The position numbers were made by a program, and so were the translations under genes. A DNA stretch of 64,000 nt from Limosilactobacillus caccae (GTDB lineage Bacteria > Bacillota > Bacilli > Lactobacillales > Lactobacillaceae): NCBI RefSeq assembly GCF_900156885.1, contig NZ_FTOY01000010.1, positions 310,001 to 374,000 of the forward strand, given 5' to 3'. The notes beneath the pieces are model-generated. The model worked only from the letters and a program-made list of their open reading frames with translations. It was not told the origin of the DNA and did no database searches. This document shows positions 8,218-25,102 of the stretch, piece by piece. Each line of letters opens with the position of its first letter. The stretch's first letter is position 1.

Positions 8218-9099
8218 ATGCCAAATTCAAAATTATTAGCACAGGCGCGACGGAGCTGGGAAGAGGCCGGGTTAGCCAATGACTTTGTTTTCAATAAGGT
8301 GATGCTTGATAAACGGATCACCCTGGAGGTCCTGCGGCGAGTCCTGCCGACCTTGCATATCAAACGGGTTAAGCAGGTAGTTAGCCAGCAGGAGTTCACC
8401 AGTAGCCATGACGCCAAGGGAGTACGGCTGGATATCTATGTCGAGGATGACCAACATAATCGTTACGACATTGAGATGCAAGTAGTAGATAAGCATAATT
8501 TGCCGCAGCGTATTCGTTTTTACCATGCGAACCTTGCGATGGATTGTTATGAAAAGGGCCAGAATTACGCGACGGCGGATAATTCCTATGTGATCTTCTT
8601 CTGTTGTTTTGACCCCTTTGGCTGCGGGGAGCAAGAGTACCAGATTGAGCGGTCGATTAAAGGCCATCCTGAGGCCACATACGCAGACGGGGAGCAAACC
8701 CTGGTATTTGACGTGACTAGCCTACGCCAGGAAGTGAACTCTAAGCTGCAGCAGTTTCTCGACGTAATTGCGAACCGTCAAGTTGGTGACGGCGACGATT
8801 TTATCGTACAATTAGAGAAGAGAATCACCTTCGTTAAGCAAAACCGGAAATGGAGGAGAGAATATATGCAACGATCATTGTACGAGATGGATATTGAAAA
8901 TAGTATTGCGTTGGCTAAGGAAGAAGGACTAGAAAAAGGGTTGAGTCAAGGTAAAGCAGAAGAAAGAACTCGTGGGATCCATAATCTAATTTATTCTCTT
9001 GAACGGCTTGGGACACCCCAAACGACTATTAAACAAAATCTGATGGAACTGTATAGACTCTCCAGTGAGGAAGCCGAGTCTTATCTTACTGATAAGTAA
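8218..9099 (+). CDS. Rpn family PD-(D/E)XK nuclease, copy 1, tail type A
   Basis: This 293-residue protein belongs to the Rpn (recombination-promoting nuclease/putative transposase, YhgA-like) family. The nuclease core holds DFVFNKVML, the catalytic Asp in GVRLDIYVED and the ExQ motif in YDIEMQ (about residues 78-94), then QRIRFYHANLAMDCYEKGQNY. Rpn proteins are DNA endonucleases; E. coli members act as phage-defence toxins. The C-terminus from MQRSLYEMD on is a separate module with EGLEKGLSQGK repeats and a type A end (LSSEEAESYLTDK). That module has its own in-frame Shine-Dalgarno and ATG at 8866. The gene lies directly before copy 2 on the same strand. Confidence 0.9.
   Translation: MPNSKLLAQARRSWEEAGLANDFVFNKVMLDKRITLEVLRRVLPTLHIKRVKQVVSQQEFTSSHDAKGVRLDIYVEDDQHNRYDIEMQVVDKHNLPQRIRFYHANLAMDCYEKGQNYATADNSYVIFFCCFDPFGCGEQEYQIERSIKGHPEATYADGEQTLVFDVTSLRQEVNSKLQQFLDVIANRQVGDGDDFIVQLEKRITFVKQNRKWRREYMQRSLYEMDIENSIALAKEEGLEKGLSQGKAEERTRGIHNLIYSLERLGTPQTTIKQNLMELYRLSSEEAESYLTDK
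8866..9099 (+). CDS. internal in-frame small protein of rpn copy 1 (RpnS-like)
   Basis: Inside rpn copy 1, in the same frame, GGAGGAGAG lies five bases before the ATG at 8866. This is a far better ribosome site than chance would place in a coding region, and it is preserved in every copy. The product would be 77 residues: MQRSLYEMDIENSIALAKEE, a short G/Q/K repeat, and the type A tail. Intragenic small proteins of this position have been reported as antitoxins of Rpn nucleases; assignment here is by architecture. Confidence 0.65.
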   Translation: MQRSLYEMDIENSIALAKEEGLEKGLSQGKAEERTRGIHNLIYSLERLGTPQTTIKQNLMELYRLSSEEAESYLTDK

Positions 9100-9166
9100 T
9101 AGATCTTTCGTTAAGTAGAGCTGGAAATAGAGTAAGTCCCGAGAAGAAGTAATTAACTTAATTTCA
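9100..9166 (+). pseudogene. scar of a type B rpn tail cassette
   Basis: Just after the stop of copy 1 comes a degenerate CGTTAAG...GGAAAT.GAG followed by AGTCCCGAGAAGAAGTAATT. The first part matches the cassette start upstream of the internal ATG, and the second matches the end of the type B tail (coding SREEVIN in copy 2). The middle is gone, so a whole tail cassette was deleted here. The same scar lies at 19209-19277. Confidence 0.6.
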
Positions 9167-9167
9167 T

Positions 9168-9196
9168 GAGGTTGAGTAGTGGCTCAACCTCTTTGT
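9168..9196 (+). terminator. terminator of rpn copy 1
   Basis: GAGGTTGAG pairs with CTCAACCTC around a short loop and is followed by TTTGTTG. The identical hairpin closes the minus-strand array at 19185-19208. Confidence 0.75.
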
Positions 9197-9295
9197 TGTT
9201 TAAAGATATTTTAGGATGCTCCGTACTTTCCTAAATTGCGAAAATTTTAGTGCATTTGCGCTTTTTTTACGTATATATCTATTAGGAGGTGCAAA

Positions 9296-10291
9296 ATGCC
9301 AAATTCAAAATTATTAGCACAAGCGCGACGGAGCTGGGAAGAAGCGGGGTTGGCCAATGACTTTGTCTTCAATAAGGTGATGTTGGATAAGCGGATTACC
9401 CTGGAAGTGTTGCGGCGAGTTTTACCTGATTTAAATATCAAGTGGGTTAAGCAAGTAGTTAGCCAGCAGGAGTTCACCAGTAGCCACGACGCTAAAGGAG
9501 TGCGACTGGATATCTATGTTGAGGACGACCAGCGGAACCGTTACGACATTGAGATGCAAGTGGTCGACAAGCATAACTTGCCACAAAGGATCCGCTTTTA
9601 TCATGCAAATTTAGCGATGGACTGTTATGAAAAGGGGCAGAATTACGCGACGGCGGATAGTTCCTACGTGATCTTCTTCTGTTGCTTCGACCCCTTTGGT
9701 TGCGGGGAGCAAGAGTACCAGATTGAACGGCTAATTAAGGGCCACCCTGACACGGCGTATGCAGACGGGGAGCAAACGCTGGTGTTTGATGTGACTAGCC
9801 TACGCCAGGAAGTAAATCCAAAGCTGCAGCAATTCCTCGACGTAATTGCGAACCGCCAAGTTGGTGACGACGACGATTTTATCGTACAATTAGAGAAGAG
9901 AATCACCTTCGTTAAGCAAAACCGGAAATGGAGGAGAGAGTATATGCAACGATCATTGTACGAGATGGATATTGAAAATAGCATTGCGTTGGCTAAGGAG
10001 CAAGGGTTAGAACAAGGGTTGAGTCAAGGATTAGAAAAGGGGCTGAGTCAAGGTAAGGCGGCCGGTATCGAAGAAGGTCGAGCAGCTGGGATTGAAGAAG
10101 GCTTAAGCCAAGGTAAAGCGGCCGGAATTAAGGAAGGCTTGAGTCAAGGTAAAGCTAAGACTGAACGGCAAATAATTCAAAAGCTAATCAATGGCGGAAA
10201 GTCCCGCGAAGAAGTAATTAACTTTATGGAGCAAATCCTCGAGCTTTCACCAGCCCAAGCCGAGAAATACTACCAAGAATTAGCAAAATAG
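9296..10291 (+). CDS. Rpn family PD-(D/E)XK nuclease, copy 2, tail type B
   Basis: The first 216 residues are nearly identical to copy 1, with the same catalytic Asp (GVRLDIYVED) and ExQ (YDIEMQ). The full protein is 331 residues because the C-terminal repeat (EQGL, SQGK, AAGIEEG units) is longer, and the end is a different type B tail (QIIQKLINGGKSREEVINF... LSPAQAEKYYQELAK). A conserved leader precedes it at 9251-9295. The repeats are encoded by near-identical DNA units and should be prone to slippage. No scar cassette follows it; a bidirectional terminator at 10334 does. Confidence 0.9.
   Translation: MPNSKLLAQARRSWEEAGLANDFVFNKVMLDKRITLEVLRRVLPDLNIKWVKQVVSQQEFTSSHDAKGVRLDIYVEDDQRNRYDIEMQVVDKHNLPQRIRFYHANLAMDCYEKGQNYATADSSYVIFFCCFDPFGCGEQEYQIERLIKGHPDTAYADGEQTLVFDVTSLRQEVNPKLQQFLDVIANRQVGDDDDFIVQLEKRITFVKQNRKWRREYMQRSLYEMDIENSIALAKEQGLEQGLSQGLEKGLSQGKAAGIEEGRAAGIEEGLSQGKAAGIKEGLSQGKAKTERQIIQKLINGGKSREEVINFMEQILELSPAQAEKYYQELAK
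9944..10291 (+). CDS. internal in-frame small protein of rpn copy 2 (RpnS-like)
   Basis: The same GGAGGAGAG-ATG site as in copy 1 lies at 9944, exactly 648 bases from the gene start as in the other copies. The product would be 115 residues with the type B tail, longer than in other loci because of extra EEG/SQGK repeats. Confidence 0.62.
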   Translation: MQRSLYEMDIENSIALAKEQGLEQGLSQGLEKGLSQGKAAGIEEGRAAGIEEGLSQGKAAGIKEGLSQGKAKTERQIIQKLINGGKSREEVINFMEQILELSPAQAEKYYQELAK

Positions 10292-10881: not shown

Positions 10882-13800
10882 TTAGTATTCACGCTTCTTC
10901 ATCAAGCCGAGGCCAAACATTGCGGAAACTGCGCCTAATGCTAAGGCTGCTGCAGATTCCTTGTTACCGGTTTGTGGCAGTGACGACTGGCTGCTTGTCC
11001 CCGTTGCTTGCTTGCTATCTGCAAGGCTTACAGAGGCACTGGCACCGTGGCCCTGCAGCGTCATGACATTCGTCTTCCCGTTGACTACATCTGCCATGCG
11101 ATGGCTGCCCGCGGTTCTGTCCCCATTAACCGCTGCTAATTCCGCCTGGGCATCTTGCAAGGCTTGGGCCGCATTGTCCTTACCCGTGGTGAGCTCTGCT
11201 AACTTGCTGTTTGCGTTATCGAAGTCAGCTTGGGCCTGTTGAAGCTTTTCCTTATTTGCATTTTGCACCTTGCCAACCAAGGCCGCGAATTCATTTTGGA
11301 AGGCGTTTAAGCGTCCACTGTACTTACTTGTTACTTGTGAAACATCAACCAGTGCTGGCTTCCCATTCGTTGAGTAATCAACGAGGACAACCGGCTGTCC
11401 GTTATGGAAGGCAAAGAAGTAAGTATCGTGCCACTCAATGAACTGCTTGCTGTTAGTTGGCGTGTGGTTAAAGACCGCTACGACATTGTAATCGTAGTTT
11501 CCGGCGCCATTCGTGCTCATCCCAATAGTAGCGCTACTGTTCCCCTTAACATGCAACGAATTGAAGTTAGGGTAATTATCACCCAAGCTGAAGGACGTCT
11601 TGCCGTCATATTGGTAGAACTTCAGGTCGTTTTGCTTACCGTATTGTGCCACAAAGGCGGCCAATTGCTGTGCTTGACTAGCACTCCACATTGGAGTTGT
11701 CGCAATCTCCTTCTTGACACTTTCAAGCGCAGCCCGCTTTTCATTAACGACCTGTTGCTGCTTAGCAAAAGCATCCGCGTGCTGGCGGTAATCCTTTTCC
11801 GCTTGAGCAACTTCTTGCTTAGCCCGGTCGACGGCTGCCTGATGAGCAGACTGCCCCTTCTTTGGCAACAATGCTGCTAATTCAGCATCTAACCGTGCCT
11901 TGAGGTCATTGTAGGCCTTCGTATCTGCGGCCTTCAACTGAGCAAGTGCATCGGCGTTCTTCTTAACAAAGTCTTCATGGTTCTTCAAAAGGCCATCGAT
12001 CTTTGCTTGTGCCGCGCTGTCATCAATCCCTAAGCGCTTAACCGTTGCGTCATAGGTATCATGAGCCGCTTGGCTAGCAGCCTTAATATCATTTTGCCGC
12101 TTCGTTTCAATGGCCGCAATCTTAGCCTGGTCGTCCTTAACAAGCTGAGCATAGTTGGCGTCGAGCTGTTTCTTCACCGCATTTACGTCAATTAACTTGC
12201 TGTTAGCGGTCTTAATCTTGTTATCCCGTGTCTTGGCCGCTGCTTCAGTAGCTTGTTCAAATGTCTGCTTAGCGGTCTCAATCGCGTTCGCCTTATTTTC
12301 AGCCAAGGTCGTCAAGATGATTTGGTGGTCGCTGTTATTTGCTTTATCCGTCTTATGAACAGCGGTCAGATGATCCTTCGCATTCGTCAATGCATCGGCA
12401 TATTGCTTAGGAACGGTAATCTTCTTATGCCAGCCAATCCCATAGCGCTCGACATTTTTAGCATCCTCAAGCTGCTGATTTTGCGGAAGGTCATTACCGG
12501 CAATCTTGTGGCATTCCTTCATCAGTTGAATTGCTTCAGTTGCGCCATCCTTTTCGATTGTTTCTGGTGACATGTAGCCACCATCACCTAATACGTAAGG
12601 CGTGTCTTGAGCGAAATCAAATGTTACTGCATAAGTAGGAACTTCAAGTCCATTAACACCATATTCCCTGTATGTGTCTTTCGTTAACTTTTGAAAACCA
12701 ATGGCAACTAGATTGGCGTTCCCTCGTAATACATTTGCGGTATGACCACCAATGTTAATGCTTCCTGGCGTGTCATTGAAAATTTCGCCATAGTACATAG
12801 ATTGCATCATGTTATATGCATTAACAAGGTAAGATAAAATTGTTGGTTTTTGTGCTGACATCGTCATTAAGTTTTCACCAATGGCATTGCTATCACCAGC
12901 ACAAATCATTATTGGGTGTGCTGTCTTATATCCCCAACTTTGTTTATTAAATTCGCTCGCAGCAGTATCAGAGGCGCTTGCCATTTCTTTCCCCATGGCA
13001 TTTTCAAAGTTATGTGAATACATGACACCATTTTCAATGGAATGCGTGTGATTATTAAGACCAGCCTGCTCACGTTCGTGTCCTACTTCTTCACCTATTT
13101 TAATAGTTTTATCAGTTTGCCGAATTTGTTGCAATGCATTTGTTTTGTAATCTTTATTATTATTTGCTTTGTCCCAAATAGCTGGGTCGTGATGATAAAT
13201 GTAGTCGCGGAAGCCGTTAGTCCAGCTGGTCATAAATGCCCGCAGGATATTCCGTTGCTCCTCGTTCAAGCCATCCTTAGAGACAGCTTCGGAGTTATCA
13301 TTCCAAGCATCATAAATGATTAAACCCGGCTTGAAATCAGTGACCATTTCATCAACATTATGTGGTGCGTGACTGAAATCGATTTCGCTATCGAACACGG
13401 TTCGATGCAAATCAAACCCTGTGTACTCTCCAGCCATTGTATCAAAGTATTCTTTCTTATTCCATCGTGCTTTGTCCCAAGGCCCGTTAATATATTCCGC
13501 AAAATCCGTCGGTTTAACTTGTGACTTCTTCCCCATCACAATCGTTGTCACCGCATGATCATCAGCATCTTTTTGGGCAACATCAACAGCGTCCTTCGCT
13601 GCCGTAATGTCCTTAGCGATTGCGGCCCGCTTGGTGGCGTAGCTCTCGTTTTCTTTCTTAACGCCGTTGTCATAGGCATCATTGGCAGCCTTAATTGCTT
13701 CATCCCGGCTTGCCTGTTGGGCTGCCGTTGTGGTGGCAAACTCTGACTTGGCATCAGCGATTTCCTGGGCCACATTTGCGGCGACTTCGCTTGCCTGGGC

Positions 13801-14316
13801 CTCTGTTTGTGCCATCTTCGCCGCATTAGCAGACCGCATTGCCGCTTCATCATTAGCGTTCGCAGCTGCTTGGCTAGCAGTTGCCTCGCTTGCCTGGGCA
13901 TTGATTGCTGATGTCTGGGCGGCGATCGTTGAATTCATCGCTGCAGAAGCCGCAGCAATCTTAGCAGCGTTTTCCTTCTTCAGTGCCGCTTGCTGTTGCT
14001 GGATAGCAGCAACCTTGCTATCAGTGGCTTCTTTATTTGCCGCATTAGCACTAGCGTATGAATCAGCCGCTGCTTGTTCCTTAGCAGCATTGTCACTAGC
14101 CACGCTGGCTAATTGCTGCTTATTTTGGGCAGCCTTTTGTTGGTAGGCTGTCTGCTTATTTTCCCCGTTACTTACTACATCAGTCGAACCTACATGAACC
14201 GTATCAGCTGAGGCATCCAGCTGGCTGGCTGTTACCCCCCCCATTGCTGCAACAACGATCGTTGCGGCGATCCAGTTCTTACCAGCTTTGTATAGCTTCT
14301 TATGTTCTTTCATCAT
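10882..14316 (-). CDS. SEC10/PgrA-like LPQTG-anchored surface protein
   Basis: The start giving MMKEHKKLYKAGKNW is behind GGGGAGG; 1144 residues. The N-terminus is a KxYKxGKxW-type signal peptide (cleavage near SADTVHV). Residues 30-240 are an Ala/Gln/Lys-rich coiled coil, followed by a central globular domain of about 330 residues with REQAGLNNHTHSIENGVMYS, GENLMTMS and NIGGHTANVL, typical of SEC10/PgrA surface proteins and reminiscent of a CAP-type fold. A second coiled coil and a beta-rich region (about 850-1000) precede the sorting signal LPQTG, a hydrophobic span and KKREY. Sortase A would link it to the wall. It is divergent from the LytTR/GHKL system, whose operator-like repeats lie in its promoter region. 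Confidence 0.9.
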   Translation of the reverse strand: MMKEHKKLYKAGKNWIAATIVVAAMGGVTASQLDASADTVHVGSTDVVSNGENKQTAYQQKAAQNKQQLASVASDNAAKEQAAADSYASANAANKEATDSKVAAIQQQQAALKKENAAKIAAASAAMNSTIAAQTSAINAQASEATASQAAANANDEAAMRSANAAKMAQTEAQASEVAANVAQEIADAKSEFATTTAAQQASRDEAIKAANDAYDNGVKKENESYATKRAAIAKDITAAKDAVDVAQKDADDHAVTTIVMGKKSQVKPTDFAEYINGPWDKARWNKKEYFDTMAGEYTGFDLHRTVFDSEIDFSHAPHNVDEMVTDFKPGLIIYDAWNDNSEAVSKDGLNEEQRNILRAFMTSWTNGFRDYIYHHDPAIWDKANNNKDYKTNALQQIRQTDKTIKIGEEVGHEREQAGLNNHTHSIENGVMYSHNFENAMGKEMASASDTAASEFNKQSWGYKTAHPIMICAGDSNAIGENLMTMSAQKPTILSYLVNAYNMMQSMYYGEIFNDTPGSINIGGHTANVLRGNANLVAIGFQKLTKDTYREYGVNGLEVPTYAVTFDFAQDTPYVLGDGGYMSPETIEKDGATEAIQLMKECHKIAGNDLPQNQQLEDAKNVERYGIGWHKKITVPKQYADALTNAKDHLTAVHKTDKANNSDHQIILTTLAENKANAIETAKQTFEQATEAAAKTRDNKIKTANSKLIDVNAVKKQLDANYAQLVKDDQAKIAAIETKRQNDIKAASQAAHDTYDATVKRLGIDDSAAQAKIDGLLKNHEDFVKKNADALAQLKAADTKAYNDLKARLDAELAALLPKKGQSAHQAAVDRAKQEVAQAEKDYRQHADAFAKQQQVVNEKRAALESVKKEIATTPMWSASQAQQLAAFVAQYGKQNDLKFYQYDGKTSFSLGDNYPNFNSLHVKGNSSATIGMSTNGAGNYDYNVVAVFNHTPTNSKQFIEWHDTYFFAFHNGQPVVLVDYSTNGKPALVDVSQVTSKYSGRLNAFQNEFAALVGKVQNANKEKLQQAQADFDNANSKLAELTTGKDNAAQALQDAQAELAAVNGDRTAGSHRMADVVNGKTNVMTLQGHGASASVSLADSKQATGTSSQSSLPQTGNKESAAALALGAVSAMFGLGLMKKREY

Positions 14317-14482
14317 TAAACGTATCCTCCCCAAAATAACGTTCGAAATATTTTCTTAAAGAACATTAACTTTGCAAATCCCCCGATTTGTTAAATTAAT
14401 CTTCCTTTTCAATTTTGAAGTATACGCTTACTCCCTTGTGAACTTAAAGATTTATTTGCAATTTTCTTAATTTTCCCTACCC

Positions 14483-14628: not shown

Positions 14629-15360
14629 TTGAATGTCTACCTGCTTGAAGACGACCCAAGTCAATTGGCACATTTAAAATCCTATGTTTTACAAATTTCC
14701 CGGGAAATACATATCGATAATTTGCAAATCCATGCGTTCCAGTCAACTGACCAGCTAAAGCTTGCCTTACCGCTGGCCAGTGAAGAGAATGTCTTCATTC
14801 TTGACTTAGAAATTAACGGCTACAAACGGGCGGGCCTTAATTTCAGCCAGACAATCCGGAAGTACGACCAGCTAGCCTCAATTATTTTCGTCACCGTCCA
14901 CGATGAATTTGTCTACACGACTTATAAGTACCGGGTGGAGGCGCTTGACTTCATCGCCAAAGACCGTGGAAACGTCTACCAGGAGCTCCTTGATGACTTC
15001 ATCTGCATCAAAGAACAATTATCCGCCGCGAAGAGTCAGGACTTCTTCACCTACAAGGTCTACACCGAAGAGGCGAAGATTCCGCTAAGCCACATCTGCT
15101 ACTTTGAGGCCAACCACTACAACTCCCATTCGTGCGTGATGGTGACAAATGACAACCAGCATATCCAGATCAACTATAACCTACGGGAATTGGAAAACGC
15201 TGACGGGCGCTTTTTCCGGACACACCGGAGCTACCTGGTAAATCCGCAACAGGTCAGAAACGTCAACCGGCTTGACCACACCGCTGAATTCCGCAACGGC
15301 CTCACATGTCCGGTTTCACGACGGCATATTAAGGAACTCACAAAGTTAATTAATAGCTGA
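14629..15360 (+). CDS. LytTR-family response regulator
   Basis: This 243-residue protein starts at TTG, 8 bases after AGGGGAGG, giving MNVYLLEDDPSQ. Residues 1-125 are a receiver domain with the acidic pocket LLEDD and the probable phosphoacceptor Asp in VFILDLEI. The C-terminal 100 residues are a LytTR DNA-binding domain (ICYFEANHYNSHSCVMV, FRTHRSYLVNPQQVRNV). This is the AgrA/BlpR/ComE type. The sensor kinase gene follows 71 bases later. No double-glycine pheromone gene was found nearby, so the signal is unknown. Likely targets are its own operon and the divergent LPQTG gene. Confidence 0.92.
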   Translation: MNVYLLEDDPSQLAHLKSYVLQISREIHIDNLQIHAFQSTDQLKLALPLASEENVFILDLEINGYKRAGLNFSQTIRKYDQLASIIFVTVHDEFVYTTYKYRVEALDFIAKDRGNVYQELLDDFICIKEQLSAAKSQDFFTYKVYTEEAKIPLSHICYFEANHYNSHSCVMVTNDNQHIQINYNLRELENADGRFFRTHRSYLVNPQQVRNVNRLDHTAEFRNGLTCPVSRRHIKELTKLINS

Positions 15361-15431
15361 TAAAACCCTTTCATTTATTAATCACCAATGCTATTCTAGT
15401 ATAGTTATAAAGAGTTCATTGGGAGATTAAT

Positions 15432-16799
15432 ATGCAATTTATTTCAACAAATATTCCAATCCTCCTGAATCCGTCGAGTACCTACCCGTCACTCGCAATG
15501 TATATTTATGCGTTCTGGATTCAGTGGAGTCTTGTTGCCTTTCTGCACGTCAAGCTTTTCGAGCGGACGAGTAAGATCAAAGTGCCGCTGTGGTTATACT
15601 TCGTTTACATCGTCGCCTGGCTCTTGCTGACCCCGTCGCTCGGTGCCGAACTTATTGAAATCGTCGGGCTGACGGTGTTGGTATACTACTTTGTTTCACG
15701 GCGAAATGTCTCAATCACCGCGTTAGTGACCTACTATATTTTCGCGTGCCTGATGTTGTACTTAACGACCGGCCTGGTTGGGACGCTGATCGGGAGCTTC
15801 ATCTCAGTTATCGCCCCGACGAAGGCATTTATCATCAGAGCGTTAATGGCGGTCCCGATTACCCTAATTGAATTTGCAATCGCCTACTGGATCATCACGA
15901 AGACCCAGGCAGCAGTTGCCAAGTTTGTCCAAGTGGTAGCCGAGCAGGCACCAGTCCTCACCTGGGTTTTCAACCTCTTCATGTTTAGCTTTGAAATTTT
16001 CAAATACGCTGGGATGGGTGGTTCAGCCCTCGTCCCTTCGCTGATCTATATCGCCCTAATCTTCGCCTATGCCCTAGTGATGACACTGACGATCCGTTAC
16101 ACGACGAAGTACTTCCAATACCAGGCGTTAGTGATCAGTCAGGAGACGGAATTAAAGAACCTGCAGACATATACTAGCCATATTGAAGAGATGTTCGATG
16201 ACCTTCGTCGTTTCCGTCACGATTACAAAAACATCCTGACGAGTCTCGGCGGTGCGATTGAAGAAGGCAAGATTGACGAGGTTCGTTCAATTTACGACCG
16301 CACGATCATGGCGACGAGTAACGACCTTGAGGAACGGACGGCCGTCCTAAGTCACCTTGCTAATATCAACGACCTTGAGATTAAGAGTCTGGTTTACAGT
16401 AAGGTCATCACCGCGATTGACAAGGATATCGCAGTCGAAGTCGAGGTTGTCGACCCAATTACCCTGTCATCGAAAGTCGATGTTTTAGATGCAATCAGGA
16501 TTATTTCTATCCTGTTCGATAACGCCATCAATGCCGCTGACAAAGCCGCCGGCGGGAAGATCAACTTTACCTTCTTCAACCAAGACCACAACCAATATAT
16601 CGTGATTGGTAATTCGACAACTGAAGAACAAATCGCTGCCGCAAAGGTAAGTGGGAAGTTCAAGGGGCTGACCACGCAAAAGCACTCGCTCGGCTTACGG
16701 ACATTGCGGATCCTGCTCGCAAAATACCCGTTCATCCAGCATAACTACAAGTCAAATAACCACTGGTTTGAACAGGAAATTATCATTCATAATAAATAA
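15432..16799 (+). CDS. GHKL sensor histidine kinase (AgrC-like)
   Basis: The 455-residue protein has about six membrane segments over residues 20-225, a linker coiled coil, and the HPK10-type phosphoacceptor motif RRFRHDYKNILTSL with His at about residue 263. The GHKL ATPase domain shows the N-box SILFDNAINAADKA and HSLGLRTLRILLAKYP. It partners the upstream LytTR regulator. AgrC-like kinases usually sense peptides, but no peptide gene is visible here. Confidence 0.92.
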   Translation: MQFISTNIPILLNPSSTYPSLAMYIYAFWIQWSLVAFLHVKLFERTSKIKVPLWLYFVYIVAWLLLTPSLGAELIEIVGLTVLVYYFVSRRNVSITALVTYYIFACLMLYLTTGLVGTLIGSFISVIAPTKAFIIRALMAVPITLIEFAIAYWIITKTQAAVAKFVQVVAEQAPVLTWVFNLFMFSFEIFKYAGMGGSALVPSLIYIALIFAYALVMTLTIRYTTKYFQYQALVISQETELKNLQTYTSHIEEMFDDLRRFRHDYKNILTSLGGAIEEGKIDEVRSIYDRTIMATSNDLEERTAVLSHLANINDLEIKSLVYSKVITAIDKDIAVEVEVVDPITLSSKVDVLDAIRIISILFDNAINAADKAAGGKINFTFFNQDHNQYIVIGNSTTEEQIAAAKVSGKFKGLTTQKHSLGLRTLRILLAKYPFIQHNYKSNNHWFEQEIIIHNK

Positions 16800-17756: not shown

Positions 17757-18055
17757 TTAGCGAGTTAATTTTTGATAGTATTCCTCGGCTTGGACTGGTG
17801 AAAGATCAAGGATTTGTTCCATAAAGTTAATTACTTCTTCGCGGGATTTCCCGCCATTGATTAGCTTTTGAATTATTTGCCGTTCTTTTTTGGCTTCACC
17901 TTGGCTTAGTCCTTTTTCTAATCCCCGGTTAAGCCTTCTTTAATTCCAGCAGCCTTACCTTGGCTCAGCCCCTTTTCTAATCCTTGGCTCAACCCTTGCT
18001 CCTTTGCCAACGCAATACTATTTTCAATATCCATCTCGTACAATGACCGTTGCAT
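17757..18055 (-). pseudogene. silent rpn tail cassette, type B, frameshifted
   Basis: A promoterless copy of only the 3' module of an rpn gene lies 45 bases after the stop of the copy 3 remnant. It begins with the conserved AAGCAAAATCGGAAATGGAG, keeps GGAGGAGAG and the ATG (18055) of MQRSLYEMD, and runs through SQGLEKGLSQGKAAGIKEGL, where a frameshift near 17925 breaks it. After the shift it reads the type B tail (QIIQKLINGGKSREEVINF... LSPVQAEEYYQKLTR). No nuclease core belongs to it. Confidence 0.75.
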
Positions 18056-18100
18056 ATACTCTCTCCTCCATTTCCGATTTTGCTTGTAATGAAGGCTTTG

Positions 18101-18322
18101 TTACTTATCAGTGAGAAAAAATTCGGCTTCTTTACTGGAAAGTTGATACAGTTCCATCAGATTTTGCTTAATAGTCGCTTTGGGTGTTCCAAGCCGCTCA
18201 AGAGAATAGATTAGGTTATGGATCCCGCGTGTTCTTTCTTCTGCTTTACCTTGACTCAATCCCTGCTCCTTAGCCAACGCAATACTGTTCTCAATATCCA
18301 TCTCGTACAATGATCGTTGCAT
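18101..18322 (-). CDS. internal small protein of broken rpn copy 3 (RpnS-like)
   Basis: GGAGGAGAG five bases before the ATG at 18322 is preserved. The 73-residue product has MQRSLYEMDIENSIALAKEQ, a short GLSQGKAEE repeat and a type A tail. It is downstream of the insertion, so it could still be translated if transcribed. Confidence 0.55.
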   Translation of the reverse strand: MQRSLYEMDIENSIALAKEQGLSQGKAEERTRGIHNLIYSLERLGTPKATIKQNLMELYQLSSKEAEFFLTDK

Positions 18323-18706
18323 ATATTCTCTCCTCCATTTCCGATTTTGCTTAACGAAGGTGATTCTCTTCTCTAATTGTACGATAAAATCGTCGTCGTC
18401 ACCAACTTGGCGGTTCGCAATCACGTCGAGAAATTGTTGCAGCTTGGGATTTACTTCCTGGCGCAGGCTAGTCACGTCAAACACCAGGGTTTGTTCTCCG
18501 TCCACGTACGCCGTGTCAGGGTGGCCCTTAATTAGCCGTTCAATCTGGTACTCTTGGTCACCGAAGCCAAAGGGATCAAAACAACAGAAGAAGATCACGT
18601 AAGAATTATCCGCGGTTGCGTAATTTTGCCCCTTTTCATAACAGTCCATCGCTAAATTTGCATGGTAAAAACGGATCCGCTGCGGCAAATTATGCTTGTC
18701 GACTAC

Positions 18707-18814
18707 CGCAGTAGCTGGCTGGATTCTGAGCGCTGATAAATCAGCACTCAGAACGCCTAGCCATCCTTGCGGGGGCTCACAGACGAAGTAGCAAGCTACT
18801 TCTGGTTCGCTCCC
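18707..18814. mobile_element. 108-bp double-hairpin insertion in rpn copy 3
   Basis: Comparison with the other three copies defines a 108-bp insertion that replaced a single base. It holds two perfect or near-perfect hairpins: TTCTGAGCGCTGAT with ATCAGCACTCAGAA (14 bp, one mismatch, 2-base loop) and GAAGTAGC with GCTACTTC (8 bp, 2-base loop). There is no clear target duplication and no terminal inverted repeat of DDE type. Two subterminal hairpins without duplication resemble palindrome-associated, IS200/IS605-derived miniature elements. Confidence 0.7.
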
Positions 18815-19077
18815 TGCATCTCAATGTCGTAACGATTATGCTGGTCGTCCTCAACGTAGATATCCAATCGTACTCCCTTAGCGTCGTGGCCACTGGTGAA
18901 TTCCTGCTGACTGACTACCTGCTTAACTCGTTTAATATGCAAGGCTGGCAGGACCCGGCGCAACACTTCCAGGGTGATCCGCTTATCCAGCATCACCTTA
19001 TTGAAAACAAAGTCATTGGCCAATCCCGCTTCTTCCCAGCTCCGTCGCGCCTGTGCTAATAATTTTGAATTTGGCAT

Positions 19078-19125
19078 TTTGCACCTCCTAATAGATATAT
19101 ACGTAAAAAGACGCAAAATGCACTA
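19078..19125 (-). promoter_or_regulatory. leader of rpn copy 3
   Basis: Same conserved block as upstream of copies 1, 2 and 4, with GGAGGTG before the ATG and an altered GTCTTTTTACG part. Confidence 0.5.
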
Positions 19126-19184
19126 AAATTTTTCAATTAGGAAAGTACAAAGTATCCGCAACCAAAATACTTTTAAACAACAAA

Positions 19185-19208
19185 GAGGTTGAGCCACTAC
19201 TCAACCTC
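19185..19208 (-). terminator. terminator of the rpn copy 4 array
   Basis: GAGGTTGAG/CTCAACCTC hairpin with TTTGTTG on the minus strand, same as after copy 1. Confidence 0.7.
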
Positions 19209-19277
19209 ATGAAATTAAGTTAATTACTTCTTCTCGGGACTTTTCTCCATTTCCGATTTTGCTTAACGAAGGCTTCG
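19209..19277 (-). pseudogene. scar of a type B rpn tail cassette
   Basis: After the intact standalone cassette, the cassette start AAGCAAAATCGGAAATGGAG reappears and passes straight into AAAGTCCCGAGAAGAAGTAA, the end of a type B tail. The repeat part in between is deleted. It is the counterpart of the scar after copy 1. Confidence 0.65.
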
Positions 19278-19559
19278 TTACTTATCAGCGAGATAAGATT
19301 CGGCTTCTTTACTGGAGAGTTGATACAGTTCCATCAGATTTTGCTTAATAGTTGCTTTGGATGTCCCAAGCCGTTCAAGGGAATAGATTAGATTATGGAT
19401 CCCACGAGTTCTTTCTTCTGCTTTACCTTGACTCAAGCCTTCTTCGATCCCAGCTGCTCGCCCTTCCTTAATCCCTGCAGCCTTACCTTGGCTCAACCCC
19501 TGCTCCTTTGCCAACGCAATACTATTTTCAATATCCATCTCGTACAATGACCGTTGCAT
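19278..19559 (-). CDS. standalone RpnS-like tail cassette, type A
   Basis: This 93-residue frame is an rpn 3' module without a nuclease core. It starts with ATG at 19559 behind GGAGGAGAG and lies 27 bases after the stop of rpn copy 4. Its homology to rpn genes begins at CGGAAATGGAG, just upstream of the ribosome site. It reads MQRSLYEMDIENSIALAKEQ, EG/SQGK repeats, and a type A tail (LSSKEAESYLADK). Placed so, it would be cotranscribed with copy 4 and could supply a second antitoxin-like protein or act as donor for tail exchange. Confidence 0.7.
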   Translation of the reverse strand: MQRSLYEMDIENSIALAKEQGLSQGKAAGIKEGRAAGIEEGLSQGKAEERTRGIHNLIYSLERLGTSKATIKQNLMELYQLSSKEAESYLADK

Positions 19560-19586
19560 ATATTCTCTCCTCCATTTCCGAAGGGG

Positions 19587-19838
19587 TTACTTTATTGCAG
19601 CTTGATAATAACTTTCTGCTTGTTTAGTTGTAAGGTTACGAGTCTTAACAAGAAAATTGATTATCTGGTCGTGTTGCTGCCCTATGTCAAGCAGACCACG
19701 AACCATCGCTACCCGTTCTTCATCTTTACCTTGACTCAAGCCTTCTTTAATTCCAGCTGCCTTACCTTGACTCAATCCCTGCTCCTTTGCCAACGCAATG
19801 CTATTCTCAATATCCATCTCGTACAATGACCGTTGCAT
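19587..19838 (-). CDS. internal in-frame small protein of rpn copy 4 (RpnS-like)
   Basis: The conserved GGAGGAGAG-ATG lies 648 bases into the gene, as in all copies. The product would be 83 residues with the type C tail. Confidence 0.62.
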   Translation of the reverse strand: MQRSLYEMDIENSIALAKEQGLSQGKAAGIKEGLSQGKDEERVAMVRGLLDIGQQHDQIINFLVKTRNLTTKQAESYYQAAIK

Positions 19839-20486
19839 ATATTCTCTCCTCCATTTCCGATTTTGCTTAACGAAGGTGATTCTCTTCTCTAATTGTACGA
19901 TAAAATCGTCGTCGTCACCAACTTGGCGGTTCGCAATCACGTCGAGAAATTGTTGCAACTTAGGGTTCACTTCCTGGCGCAAGCTAGTCACGTCAAACAC
20001 TAGCGTTTGTTCCCCATCAGCGTATACGGCGTCAGGGTGGTCTTTAATTCGTCGTTCAATCTGATACTCTTGGTCACCGAAGCCAAAGGGGTCAAAACAA
20101 CAGAAGAAGATCACGTAAGAATTATCCGCCGTTGCGTAATTTTGCCCCTTTTCATAACAGTCCATCGCAAGGTTCGCGTGGTAAAAGCGGATTCGCTGCG
20201 GCAAATTATGTTTATCGACTACTTGCATCTCAATGTCAAAGCGATTATGCTGGTCATCTTCAACATAGATATCCAGCCGCACTCCCTTGGCGTCATGACT
20301 ACTGGTGAATTCCTGCTGGCTGACTACCTGCTTGACCCGTTTGATATGCAAGGTCGGCAGAACTCGCCGCAACACTTCCAGGGTGATCCGCTTATCCAAC
20401 ATCACCTTATTGAAAACAAAGTCGTTGGCTAACCCCGCTTCTTCCCAGCTCCGTCGCGCTTGTGCTAATAATTTCTGATTTGGCAT
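19587..20486 (-). CDS. Rpn family PD-(D/E)XK nuclease, copy 4, tail type C
   Basis: The 299-residue protein starts at ATG 20486 (MPNQKLLAQARRSWEE) behind the conserved leader. The nuclease core is intact, with GVRLDIYVEDD and the ExQ motif FDIEMQ. After the MQRSLYEMD module and SQGKAAGIKEG repeats it ends in a third tail type, C (DEERVAMVRGLLDIGQQHD... TTKQAESYYQAAIK). With copies 1 and 2 it is one of three apparently functional rpn genes. Two downstream partial cassettes (one intact, one scar) share its transcription unit. Confidence 0.9.
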   Translation of the reverse strand: MPNQKLLAQARRSWEEAGLANDFVFNKVMLDKRITLEVLRRVLPTLHIKRVKQVVSQQEFTSSHDAKGVRLDIYVEDDQHNRFDIEMQVVDKHNLPQRIRFYHANLAMDCYEKGQNYATADNSYVIFFCCFDPFGFGDQEYQIERRIKDHPDAVYADGEQTLVFDVTSLRQEVNPKLQQFLDVIANRQVGDDDDFIVQLEKRITFVKQNRKWRREYMQRSLYEMDIENSIALAKEQGLSQGKAAGIKEGLSQGKDEERVAMVRGLLDIGQQHDQIINFLVKTRNLTTKQAESYYQAAIK

Positions 20487-22324: not shown

Positions 22325-25102
22325 TTAATACTCCCGTTTCTTCATCAAACCAAGGCCAAACATTGCTGAAACTGCACCGAGTGCTAGTGCGGCGGCGGAT
22401 GTGCTGCTCCCCGTCTGTGGCAGGCGAGCCTGCTTTACAGCGCCGTCACTAGTTGTGCCCTGACTGCGGTGAATCGGCAATACCGCCGTGGCGCCCTTGC
22501 TAGTGGCCATGCCATTTTCCGTTAACACTAACGTATTGGTCTTCCCGCTAACCACTGCCTGCCCATTCTTAGCGACACCAGCCTGTTGAGGGAATAGCTT
22601 TGTGTGCAATGCCGCTAAGTCGGCATCTAGCTTATTCTTCAACTGATCATAAGCGGCGCGATCACTAGCTAGCAGTGCGGCTAACTTATCGTTATTCGCC
22701 TTAACGAATACATCATGATCAGCGGTCAACTTAGCAATTTGCGTCTTTGCTTCTGCTTGCCGGTGGTCATTAGCACCCTGGGCTGCCTGTTCAAGCTGCG
22801 CCTTAAATGCTGCGACTTCGTCTGCGGCCGCCTTATTGATTGCGGCCAATTTTGCATCGTGCGCCGTCTGCAAGGCGTTGAGCTTAGCCTGGCCGTCTGC
22901 CTTCACTGCTGCCAACTTAGCAGAAAGTTGTTGCTCCAAGGCAGCAAGCGACTCTGGCTGGGCCTTGATGTCAGCGATCTTCTTAGCAAACTGGTCCTTG
23001 ATTGTTTGTAATTGCGTGTCGCGGTCCTTAGTAGCGGCATTAACCTGCTTCGTGTATTCGTCGTTGACCCGCTTGATCGTAGCGTCGTACGTCGCGAGGA
23101 TATCGGCGTGGTAATCCTTCGCGTTGATCGTGTCAACCGCCTTTTGACCATCAGCCTTAACCTGATCGACGTGGGCTTGCGCCTGCTTAACGGCCGGTGC
23201 ATTTAAGTCCGGCTTGTAGCTTGGGGTTTGCGTTGACTTAATTTTTGCAATGACACCAGTATTAACAAGCCCCTTTTCCCATTCGGGGAAAAATTCATCG
23301 TCTTGTGCAAAGGTATCCTCGTATTCCTTAGTGGTGTAATCTTCGTAGTCACCAGCGAAGTCCCAGGTAATATAGTAGAAGGTTTCGTTTTGGTTGTCCG
23401 ACCCAGTGTTTTCGACGAAGAAGTCGGGGTCGGTCTTAGCGTTTTGGAAGGCCATGCCAACGAGCTTAAAGTGCGGGTTAATGACGTTTGCAAGGTGACC
23501 GCCAAGGTGCGGTGCTTGGTCATTTTTAGAGAAGCTGGAGTAGAATTCACCCCAGAGCATGGATTGCATCCGGTTGTAGAGGTTGACTTCCATTTCAAGC
23601 ATGGTATTACCTTCGACGGTGTATAAGTTTTCTCCGGCGGCATCAATTATAGGCGCGTCCCACGTCATGGCTGCACTATCTTGTCCGCTAAACATACGAA
23701 TTTCGTCATAGAAGCTTCCACCGTCATCGTCGTATCCTGCACCATCCTTGGCATTTTCCATGGAGTGTTCGTAATGGTTGTGGTGCTGTTCACGGGTAGT
23801 ACCAATTAGCGTTGATACGTGATTCCAATAGTTCTTTGGTGTAATCAAGTCTTGCAATTGGCTCTTTGGTGCCATTTCACCAACAGTCATGGCTTCCATT
23901 GGGTCGATTAAACTGGAGTAACCATCGACATGTGCGTCAGCCATCGTGTTTTGGATCTTCATTTGTTCCCAAACGCGGTGACGCATGTCGTTCATCCATT
24001 GGTTGGAAAGGTCGTTAAGGCGTTGCTTTTGCTCGTTAGTTAAGTCGCCATTGATCTTTTCAGAATGATCTTGAGCTGGGTCATAGGCTAAGAGCCCGAG
24101 CTTAAAGTCTAATGGCAGTTGGTTTTCGTCAGTGACTAAATTCGTCTTGTCCTTAAAAAGGTCCAGATCTGAAGCCGTGTTGTACCAAGTTCCAAGTGAT
24201 ACTTCTGGGTGCATTGATTGGCCATTGTCACCGGTGTCGGTGTCTTGAGATAATCCCTTTCCATATGAGGTCAATTGATCTCCCCCCGCCGGTGTAGCGG
24301 GCTTAACGGCGGTGTTAATCCGGGGCGCGTTAGCAACAGCTTGGTCGTAAGCTTGCTTAGCCGCAGCCAAGGCCTTAGCGTTTTGAGCTTGTTGGTTCTT
24401 TAAGTCTTGTTGCTTCAAGGCATCAGCGTGTTGGTTGTCTTGGTCACGCTTAGTTGTAGCTTGGCTCACGGCGGTGTCATGGGCAGTCTTAGCCGAAGCG
24501 ATCGTATGGTTGAACTGGTCAGTAACGCCTTGTTCAGCCTTCTTTTGGTCGGCTTGGGCAGCGGAAACTTGGGCGGCCTTTTGGGCAGGCGTTACGATCA
24601 TCTTGGCGGCATTGGCTAAGGCCTGGCTATAACTTGCTTCTTGTGCTTTCACCGCCTGGTCATTTGCCGATAGCTGCTTTTGCTTGCTTTGCTGGTAAGC
24701 AGTATTTTCCGCTTTAATCTGCTCATTTGCCCCTGCCGTCACGGTGGCTTGTTTCTGCGCTACCTGCTGGTTAACCTTGTCCTGGTCAGCCTTATTCGCA
24801 CTCGCTACCCGCTCATTAATTGTCGTGACCTTTTGCTGGACCGTTGCTGCGTCCTTATCATTAGCTTGCGTATTTTGTTGGCGCAGGTCGTTTTCCTTGG
24901 CCTGGTTTTGCTGTTGCAAGCTGGCTAACTGTTGCTGCGCACTGCTTTGCTCATTCGCATACTGCCCTTCCGGCGATACCGTTGCTTGTTGTTGATCACT
25001 AACGGCCTCATCGGCATGCGCCGTCTCCGTGGTGCCAGCCCCGATCAATACCCCTGCAAGGACAGCAGAAGTGGTTAAAGCTTGCTTGTGCATTTTATTC
25101 AT
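22325..25102 (-). CDS. second SEC10/PgrA-like LPQTG surface protein
   Basis: The 925-residue protein has a plain signal peptide (cleavage after AHADE), an Ala/Gln/Lys coiled coil to about 260, a central domain with RHRVWEQMK, TTREQHHNHYEHSMENAKDG, GENLYTVEGNTMLEME and LGGHLANVINPHFKLVGMAF, a second coiled coil (about 640-830) and the sorting signal LPQTG with KKREY. The ordered H..., GENL, W-E and GGH..N blocks resemble a CAP-type fold. Its last 25 residues equal those of the 10.9-14.3 kb protein, although the DNA has diverged. It is a sortase substrate; surface exclusion, aggregation or adhesion are possible roles. Confidence 0.9.
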   Translation of the reverse strand: MNKMHKQALTTSAVLAGVLIGAGTTETAHADEAVSDQQQATVSPEGQYANEQSSAQQQLASLQQQNQAKENDLRQQNTQANDKDAATVQQKVTTINERVASANKADQDKVNQQVAQKQATVTAGANEQIKAENTAYQQSKQKQLSANDQAVKAQEASYSQALANAAKMIVTPAQKAAQVSAAQADQKKAEQGVTDQFNHTIASAKTAHDTAVSQATTKRDQDNQHADALKQQDLKNQQAQNAKALAAAKQAYDQAVANAPRINTAVKPATPAGGDQLTSYGKGLSQDTDTGDNGQSMHPEVSLGTWYNTASDLDLFKDKTNLVTDENQLPLDFKLGLLAYDPAQDHSEKINGDLTNEQKQRLNDLSNQWMNDMRHRVWEQMKIQNTMADAHVDGYSSLIDPMEAMTVGEMAPKSQLQDLITPKNYWNHVSTLIGTTREQHHNHYEHSMENAKDGAGYDDDGGSFYDEIRMFSGQDSAAMTWDAPIIDAAGENLYTVEGNTMLEMEVNLYNRMQSMLWGEFYSSFSKNDQAPHLGGHLANVINPHFKLVGMAFQNAKTDPDFFVENTGSDNQNETFYYITWDFAGDYEDYTTKEYEDTFAQDDEFFPEWEKGLVNTGVIAKIKSTQTPSYKPDLNAPAVKQAQAHVDQVKADGQKAVDTINAKDYHADILATYDATIKRVNDEYTKQVNAATKDRDTQLQTIKDQFAKKIADIKAQPESLAALEQQLSAKLAAVKADGQAKLNALQTAHDAKLAAINKAAADEVAAFKAQLEQAAQGANDHRQAEAKTQIAKLTADHDVFVKANNDKLAALLASDRAAYDQLKNKLDADLAALHTKLFPQQAGVAKNGQAVVSGKTNTLVLTENGMATSKGATAVLPIHRSQGTTSDGAVKQARLPQTGSSTSAAALALGAVSAMFGLGLMKKREY

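Follow-up and report, generated by a model that had tools for sequence, protein, structure and literature searches.

The subject of this article is a set of rpn genes in Limosilactobacillus caccae, four of which lie in a 64,000-nucleotide (nt) stretch of its genome that we call the window (RefSeq assembly GCF_900156885.1, contig NZ_FTOY01000010.1, positions 310,001 to 374,000). Rpn stands for recombination-promoting nuclease, a toxin–antitoxin (TA) system whose partners, RpnL and RpnS, form intragenic pairs that act against phage (PMC10327210). We favour a reading, which we think probable if by no great measure, in which the genome's eight rpn paralogues are TA loci whose 3' tail module recombines among them as a unit, the displaced tails being read as free RpnS. 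The history of recombination is apparent in mosaic combinations of cores and tails, in breakpoints at or just after the start of the module and in the same tail turning up both within a gene and standing alone. The expression of standalone tails, their antitoxin activity and any benefit they bring are what we infer from these patterns.

The four genes of the window belong to one rpn subfamily and are set out as two tandem pairs pointing in opposite directions: copies 1 and 2 at 8218-10291 on the forward strand, and copies 4 and 3 at 20486-18101 on the reverse. A profile scan of copies 1, 2 and 4 placed the PD-(D/E)XK nuclease family core (PF12784) above cut-off in all three. Each rpn gene also holds an internal Shine-Dalgarno (SD) site and ATG (GGAAATGGAGGAGAGARTATATG), from which a tail of 73-119 amino acids (aa) would be translated. 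The parts are as follows.

8218-9099, forward: rpn copy 1 (w1), PD-(D/E)XK nuclease core with in-gene tail A (PF12784, E 1.4e-13; open reading frame)
8806-8814, forward: internal element of copy 1 resembling a promoter -10 box, GTACAATTA, 60 nt 5' of the internal ATG (sequence and distance)
8845-9099, forward: tail module A of copy 1, with internal SD and internal ATG at 8866 (sequence)
9100-9166, forward: scar of a type B module 3' of copy 1 (sequence)
9168-9191, forward: terminator-like hairpin closing the copy 1 array (terminator scan)
9296-10291, forward: rpn copy 2 (w2), in-gene tail B, internal ATG at 9944, no standalone tail (PF12784, E 3.2e-13)
19587-20486, reverse: rpn copy 4 (w4), in-gene tail C, internal ATG at 19838 (PF12784, E 1.1e-13)
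19278-19580, reverse: standalone intact type A module 3' of copy 4, open reading frame 19278-19559, CGGAAATGGAG at 19580
19209-19277, reverse: scar of a type B module 3' of the standalone A, in the copy 4 array
19185-19208, reverse: terminator-like hairpin closing the copy 4 array
18101-19077, reverse: rpn copy 3 (w3), with an insert that breaks the core and in-gene tail A still readable from the internal ATG at 18322
18707-18815: insert of about 107 base pairs (bp) in the copy 3 core, borders approximate, kin of a small dispersed repeat
17757-18076, reverse: standalone type B module 3' of copy 3, frameshifted after 45 aa, CGGAAATGGAG at 18076

The original prediction had placed the standalone A, the frameshifted B and the two B scars where we find them, and had rightly given tail A to copies 1 and 3, B to copy 2 and C to copy 4. 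Its claim that the modules begin at CGGAAATGGAG holds for the standalone A and B; the first scar (9100-9166) reads a degenerate CTGGAAATAGAG. In several modules homology starts some 15-18 nt further upstream (CCTTCGTTAAGCAAAA), a stretch that modules following a C tail lack. The core it called nearly constant is better described as similar, at 85-95% nucleotide identity among the eight loci, and that of copy 3 is 107 bp longer than the others, with an insert that disrupts the frame. The insert has six more matches, of 43-78 nt and 85-88% identity, on three other contigs.

Searching the same assembly gave 23 matches, which resolve into eight loci of the window's rpn subfamily, all on contig C2; two divergent rpn genes lie on C4 and C11. 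The four loci beyond the window, L016 to L019, are built like those within it. If each array is written from the in-gene tail onwards, a type B scar being B', the window reads A-B' (w1), B (w2), A-B with the B frameshifted (w3) and C-A-B' (w4), and the rest of the genome reads C-B-A-B' (L016), A-B (L017), C-B (L018) and B-A-C-B (L019). Altogether there are 17 tail modules, 16 intact and one frameshifted, and three scars, the third of them in L016. Eight modules are in-gene tails and nine stand alone (eight of the nine intact); outside the window, one or two standalone tails follow the gene in three loci and three follow it in L019. All 12 neighbouring pairs of modules are of differing type (label shuffling, P 0.003, a value that is too small because three A-B' pairs share ancestry for which it is uncorrected). 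Behind the last B module of L019 lies a decayed piece of a tail module (G000:C2:531355-531405, 79% identity over about 50 nt), so this array was once longer.

The tails fall into three types whose type domains share 84-100% of their DNA sequence within a type and 44-55% between types, a pattern that is therefore more than chance. The cores do not sort by tail type. The nearest core to that of copy 1, with tail A, is that of L016, with tail C (94.7%), and the nearest to copy 4, with tail C, is L019, with tail B (94.7%). This last pair, 200 kb apart, shows a breakpoint. Their cores differ at 32 positions between 9 and 248 and at none from 249 to 625, a tract of 377 bp. A mismatch returns at 626, one nucleotide before the module starts at 627 (CGGAAATGGAG), and the sequences then part into tail C and tail B. 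Were mismatches scattered at random, the first 249 of the 626 positions would hold every one of the 32 with P 1.5e-13, a post hoc figure for a tract chosen after it had been seen. The type domain of the in-gene C of copy 4 recurs in the standalone C that is the third module of L019, identical at 132 of 132 nt. Their linkers differ, so the left edge of that exchange lay at the repeat linker. Close matches across positions recur: the standalone B of L016 and in-gene B of L019 are 99.2% identical, and the in-gene A of copy 3 and standalone A of L019 97.9%. Breakpoints thus occur at the module start and also within the four-residue repeats of the linker. These comparisons support tail exchange between rpn copies, and with it the original proposal that tails are duplicated, deleted and exchanged by way of homology around the point where the module begins. 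Cores and tails do not share one history free of breakpoints at that point: copy 4 and L019 part there, and the C type domain of one gene stands alone behind the other.

AGGAG lies 7 nt 5' of the ATG in 17 of 17 modules of the genome, all nine standalone ones included, and across the fetched loci 61 of 61 modules have an SD of 4 nt or longer, a feature of 10 of the 65 control ATGs elsewhere in the core. Each of the eight in-gene tails has GTANAATTA at a distance of exactly 60 nt 5' of its internal ATG, an element found within 110 nt of none of the nine standalone tails. In modules of W-R type, to which the codon statistics are confined, P-R-R type being left out and relatedness ignored, the site reads TANAAT in 40 of 45 in-gene modules (fetched loci and window together); valine there is GTA in 28 of 28 cases against 27 of 246 upstream valines, and leucine is TTA in 33 of 45 against a background of 53 of 289. 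A scan for consensus promoters found promoter-like sites no more often than in shuffled sequence, and the case for the element rests on this codon conservation instead. The end of the core is uniform too: among the eight cores, synonymous variation affects 3 of the final 24 codons, compared with 115 of the 192 at the start, for which frequent recombination could be another cause. On our reading the element would serve as the -10 box for a promoter of RpnS inside the gene, and standalone tails would rely on read-through from it. In E. coli, according to PMC10327210, a transcription start within every rpn gene yields a short, stronger transcript.

The original prediction called the standalone tails promoterless, which is probably right since they lack the -10-like element, and silent, which probably goes too far. 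Their SD and ATG are kept, eight of nine are intact, and the five loci scanned (w1 to w4 and L019; L016 to L018 lay outside the scan) have no terminator-like site between gene and standalone tail. Selection points the same way: the ratio of nonsynonymous to synonymous divergence (dN/dS) in the type domain, computable for 40 of 42 same-type pairs, is 0.00-0.26 in 39 and 0.58 in one with very low dS. The frameshifted module also has a low dN/dS, from which it follows that it broke recently. For these reasons the standalone tails are probably not silent. The alternative, that of the original prediction, is a silent donor reservoir, in which the tails would persist chiefly because they supply templates for changing tails, with no protein made from them. 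It draws on the lack of the -10-like element in all nine standalone tails when all eight in-gene tails have it, on the presence of the same tails in both positions and on linkers that mostly match no resident toxin. Against it stand the nine intact pairs of SD and ATG, the low dN/dS and the uninterrupted path from gene to tail in the scanned loci, together with the report that the product of the rpnS gene downstream of E. coli rpnE has been detected (PMC10327210). We regard such a reservoir as doubtful.

The linkers say something about what the tails could do if made. They span 8-58 aa, and in 16 of 16 intact modules their length modulo 4 is 0 for type A, 2 for B and 1 for C, as expected of four-residue repeats. 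Within a type, equal length occurs in one pair only (C, 41 aa, in the L018 gene and the L019 standalone tail). In RpnC a single added repeat broke neutralization (PMC10327210), and most standalone tails here may, given their unequal linkers, not neutralize a resident toxin. A role as extra antitoxin for resident toxins is thus weakened; standalone tails that do not neutralize residents would serve against RpnL of the past or RpnL arriving from elsewhere, or as a stock for tail change. Antitoxin function itself is inferred. A structure model of the tail is helical (predicted local distance difference test, pLDDT, 73.6 overall) but has no convincing relative of solved structure: its best VIA-align match has Z 5.4, RpnA_S, whose solved fold has three helices, is absent among the matches listed, and Foldseek gave no match at E 0.001. 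The full-length copy 4 model (pLDDT 49.8) is too poor for use, and the copy 4 sequence matched no solved structure up to E 1.

The mechanism we propose runs as follows. An RpnL nuclease would be held in check by an RpnS antitoxin translated from within the same gene, and the tail module would comprise the internal ribosome site, the repeat linker and the type domain. Unequal homologous recombination of the RecA type would take place in the junction block (the end of the core, the internal SD and the first tail codons) and in the 12-nt repeats of the linker, bringing a new tail in behind the core and pushing the older one downstream, or deleting tails. A displaced tail would keep its ribosome site, be read from transcripts of the upstream gene and be translated as free RpnS of another specificity. 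With the old antidote kept, a change of tail could be safe while the old toxin persists.

The arrays that share a 3' end bear on this order of events. Scar B' and the terminator after it are common to w1, w4 and L016, with flanks 83-88% identical over 102-396 nt, and these arrays read core-A, core-C-A and core-C-B-A, their differences adjoining the core. Either the entry of new tails next to the core or the loss of tails from that side would fit this picture. The flanks of L017 and L018, compared by BLAST, have only 27 nt in common. Plain tandem duplication of the 3' ends of rpn genes and their later decay, with the mix of types arising once long ago and no exchange at present, would account for the three shared scars and the frameshift; the copy 1–copy 2 and copy 4–copy 3 pairs are themselves duplicates, and the same process explains the downstream rpnS genes of E. 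coli (PMC10327210) and several same-type cases in relatives. Yet it predicts neighbours of the same type, when all 12 pairs differ, and tracts of 100% identity beside diverged sequence, with the tail changing at the edge, need recent exchange. We consider this explanation unlikely. Less conservative is the idea of programmed tail switching akin to antigenic variation, in which the nuclease or the breaks it makes would promote recombination at a sequence-frozen junction, the array being an ordered record, newest first, with displaced tails as expressed antitoxins; we hold it to be a long shot. That repeated modules of different loci were misjoined is most improbable: the modules are repeats of about 300 bp in an assembly of 11 contigs, but the arrays are embedded in a contig of 630 kb and have unique flanks, the modules differ at many positions, and the same kind of array occurs in two other genomes, G022 and G041, the latter in a single 2.3-Mb contig.

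Exchange of this sort is not confined to the window's subfamily. Among 80 loci fetched from other genomes, which were picked for matches to core or tail so that frequencies are not rates, 10 have a readable tail downstream of the gene; they come from five genomes (G019, G022, G031, G041 and G044). In G022, from another species of the genus and with a divergent rpn subfamily, locus L065 has tail K in the gene and tail S standing alone, and L066 has S in the gene. The two show no mismatch over alignment columns 477-731, all 13 earlier mismatches falling before column 477, and then differ in their tails; the internal ATG is at column 681, which puts the edge of identity 51 nt within the tail. The standalone S of L065 is 95.8% identical to the in-gene S of L066, and the K that L065 carries in its gene matches the standalone K of L063 fully (100% over 120 nt). 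L064, from G041 and another species, has the layout of L065. A second species with another rpn subfamily shows similar tail exchange. By DNA identity of downstream tail to gene tail, L064 and L065 are mixed-type arrays (51%) and L066 is intermediate (66%); L063 is a same-type array, as by eye are L048, L056, L068, L069 and L098, and L036 is decayed and ambiguous. L067 (G044:C42:6000-8641) has two consecutive tail-like open reading frames without a core, near a contig end. A sequence search for relatives gave one distant match (29%) among genome contigs, eight plasmid records at 25-38%, all from lactobacilli in the wide sense, and none among viral contigs.

Several points weigh against the reading we favour. 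Outside the window's genome the majority of downstream tails seem to be of the same type as the gene they follow, and mixed arrays are not the rule. On a tree of 49 cores (30 A-like, 16 B/C-like and three unassigned, with copy 3 left out) the tail class changes at least six times, four of the changes forced by well-supported branches; shuffled classes change 13.6 times on average, and none of 500 shuffles came as low as six. Tail class between species thus mostly follows the core, and swapping is not free; mixing is concentrated in the window's own clade. The low dN/dS of standalone tails may stem from time spent in gene position, and the mismatched linkers tell against neutralization of residents. 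The species is represented by one genome, in which no tail change is witnessed and the arrays fit insertion and deletion alike. A common 3' flank of w3 and L019, suggested by inspection, fell short of E 1e-3 when compared by BLAST.

The surroundings of the genes have features of their own. Directly 5' of the rpn start codon, a block of about 46 nt or more that includes GTATATATCTATTAGGAGGTGCAAAATG is common to all 28 pairs of the eight loci, with identity of 91-100% in most pairs and 88% at the lowest; in the window it stands immediately before 8218, 9296, 19077 and 20486. Large coiled-coil-like surface proteins with LPXTG-type ends lie beside the rpn pairs at 22325-25102 and 10882-14334, both on the reverse strand, the former matching Gram_pos_anchor. 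Between the pairs, at 14629-16799 on the forward strand, are a LytTR response regulator and an apparent sensor kinase.

Set beside known systems, these loci resemble the Rpn of PMC10327210 most closely. They share a PF12784-type core, an internal start of a small variable tail, repeats in the linker, downstream rpnS genes and several copies per genome. That paper describes RpnS as the antitoxin, four-residue repeats as the determinant of specificity and separate downstream rpnS genes; it proposes RpnL as a possible starter of the recombination that makes downstream copies, and names the diversification of rpn tails as an open question. There, rpnC_S and rpnE_S of E. coli each group with the tail of the gene that precedes them, whereas here neighbours differ in type, up to three standalone tails follow one gene, and the same tail occurs in both positions. 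In the open-licence literature, with the supplement of PMC10327210 outside it, we found no published account of mixed-type rpn tail arrays. The mixed arrays appear to be new; downstream rpnS of the gene's own type was already known (PMC10327210).

Contact-dependent inhibition (CDI) and Rhs systems likewise have variable C-terminal modules after a conserved marker, with displaced modules lying beyond the main gene; homologous recombination is described as swapping modules between orphan and main positions, and orphan immunity as expressible (PMC3150448, PMC3967940). The rpn arrays are like them in having downstream modules of other type and a conserved marker where these and the main gene exchange. 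CDI and Rhs orphans, however, are toxin and immunity pairs of secreted proteins, the orphan toxin usually lacking a start (PMC3150448, PMC3967940), whereas here the antitoxin would itself make up the module, complete with a ribosome site, and the nuclease would be intracellular. Since there is no separate immunity gene, the module being the tail itself, CDI and Rhs are an analogy and the rpn arrays not a member. The orphan immunity arrays of the type VI secretion system (T6SS) in Vibrio cholerae are alike in that successive displacement leaves old immunity genes downstream (PMC5361080). They differ in that protection there is thought to be aimed at kin still firing the old effector (PMC5361080), and rpn nucleases are not known to pass between cells. 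Eight loci, with tails of three types and some arrays ending alike, supply concrete breakpoints and pairs that bear on how rpn tails diversify, and would bring a defence nuclease that works inside the cell under the logic of displaced modules familiar from the immunity arrays of CDI, Rhs and T6SS.

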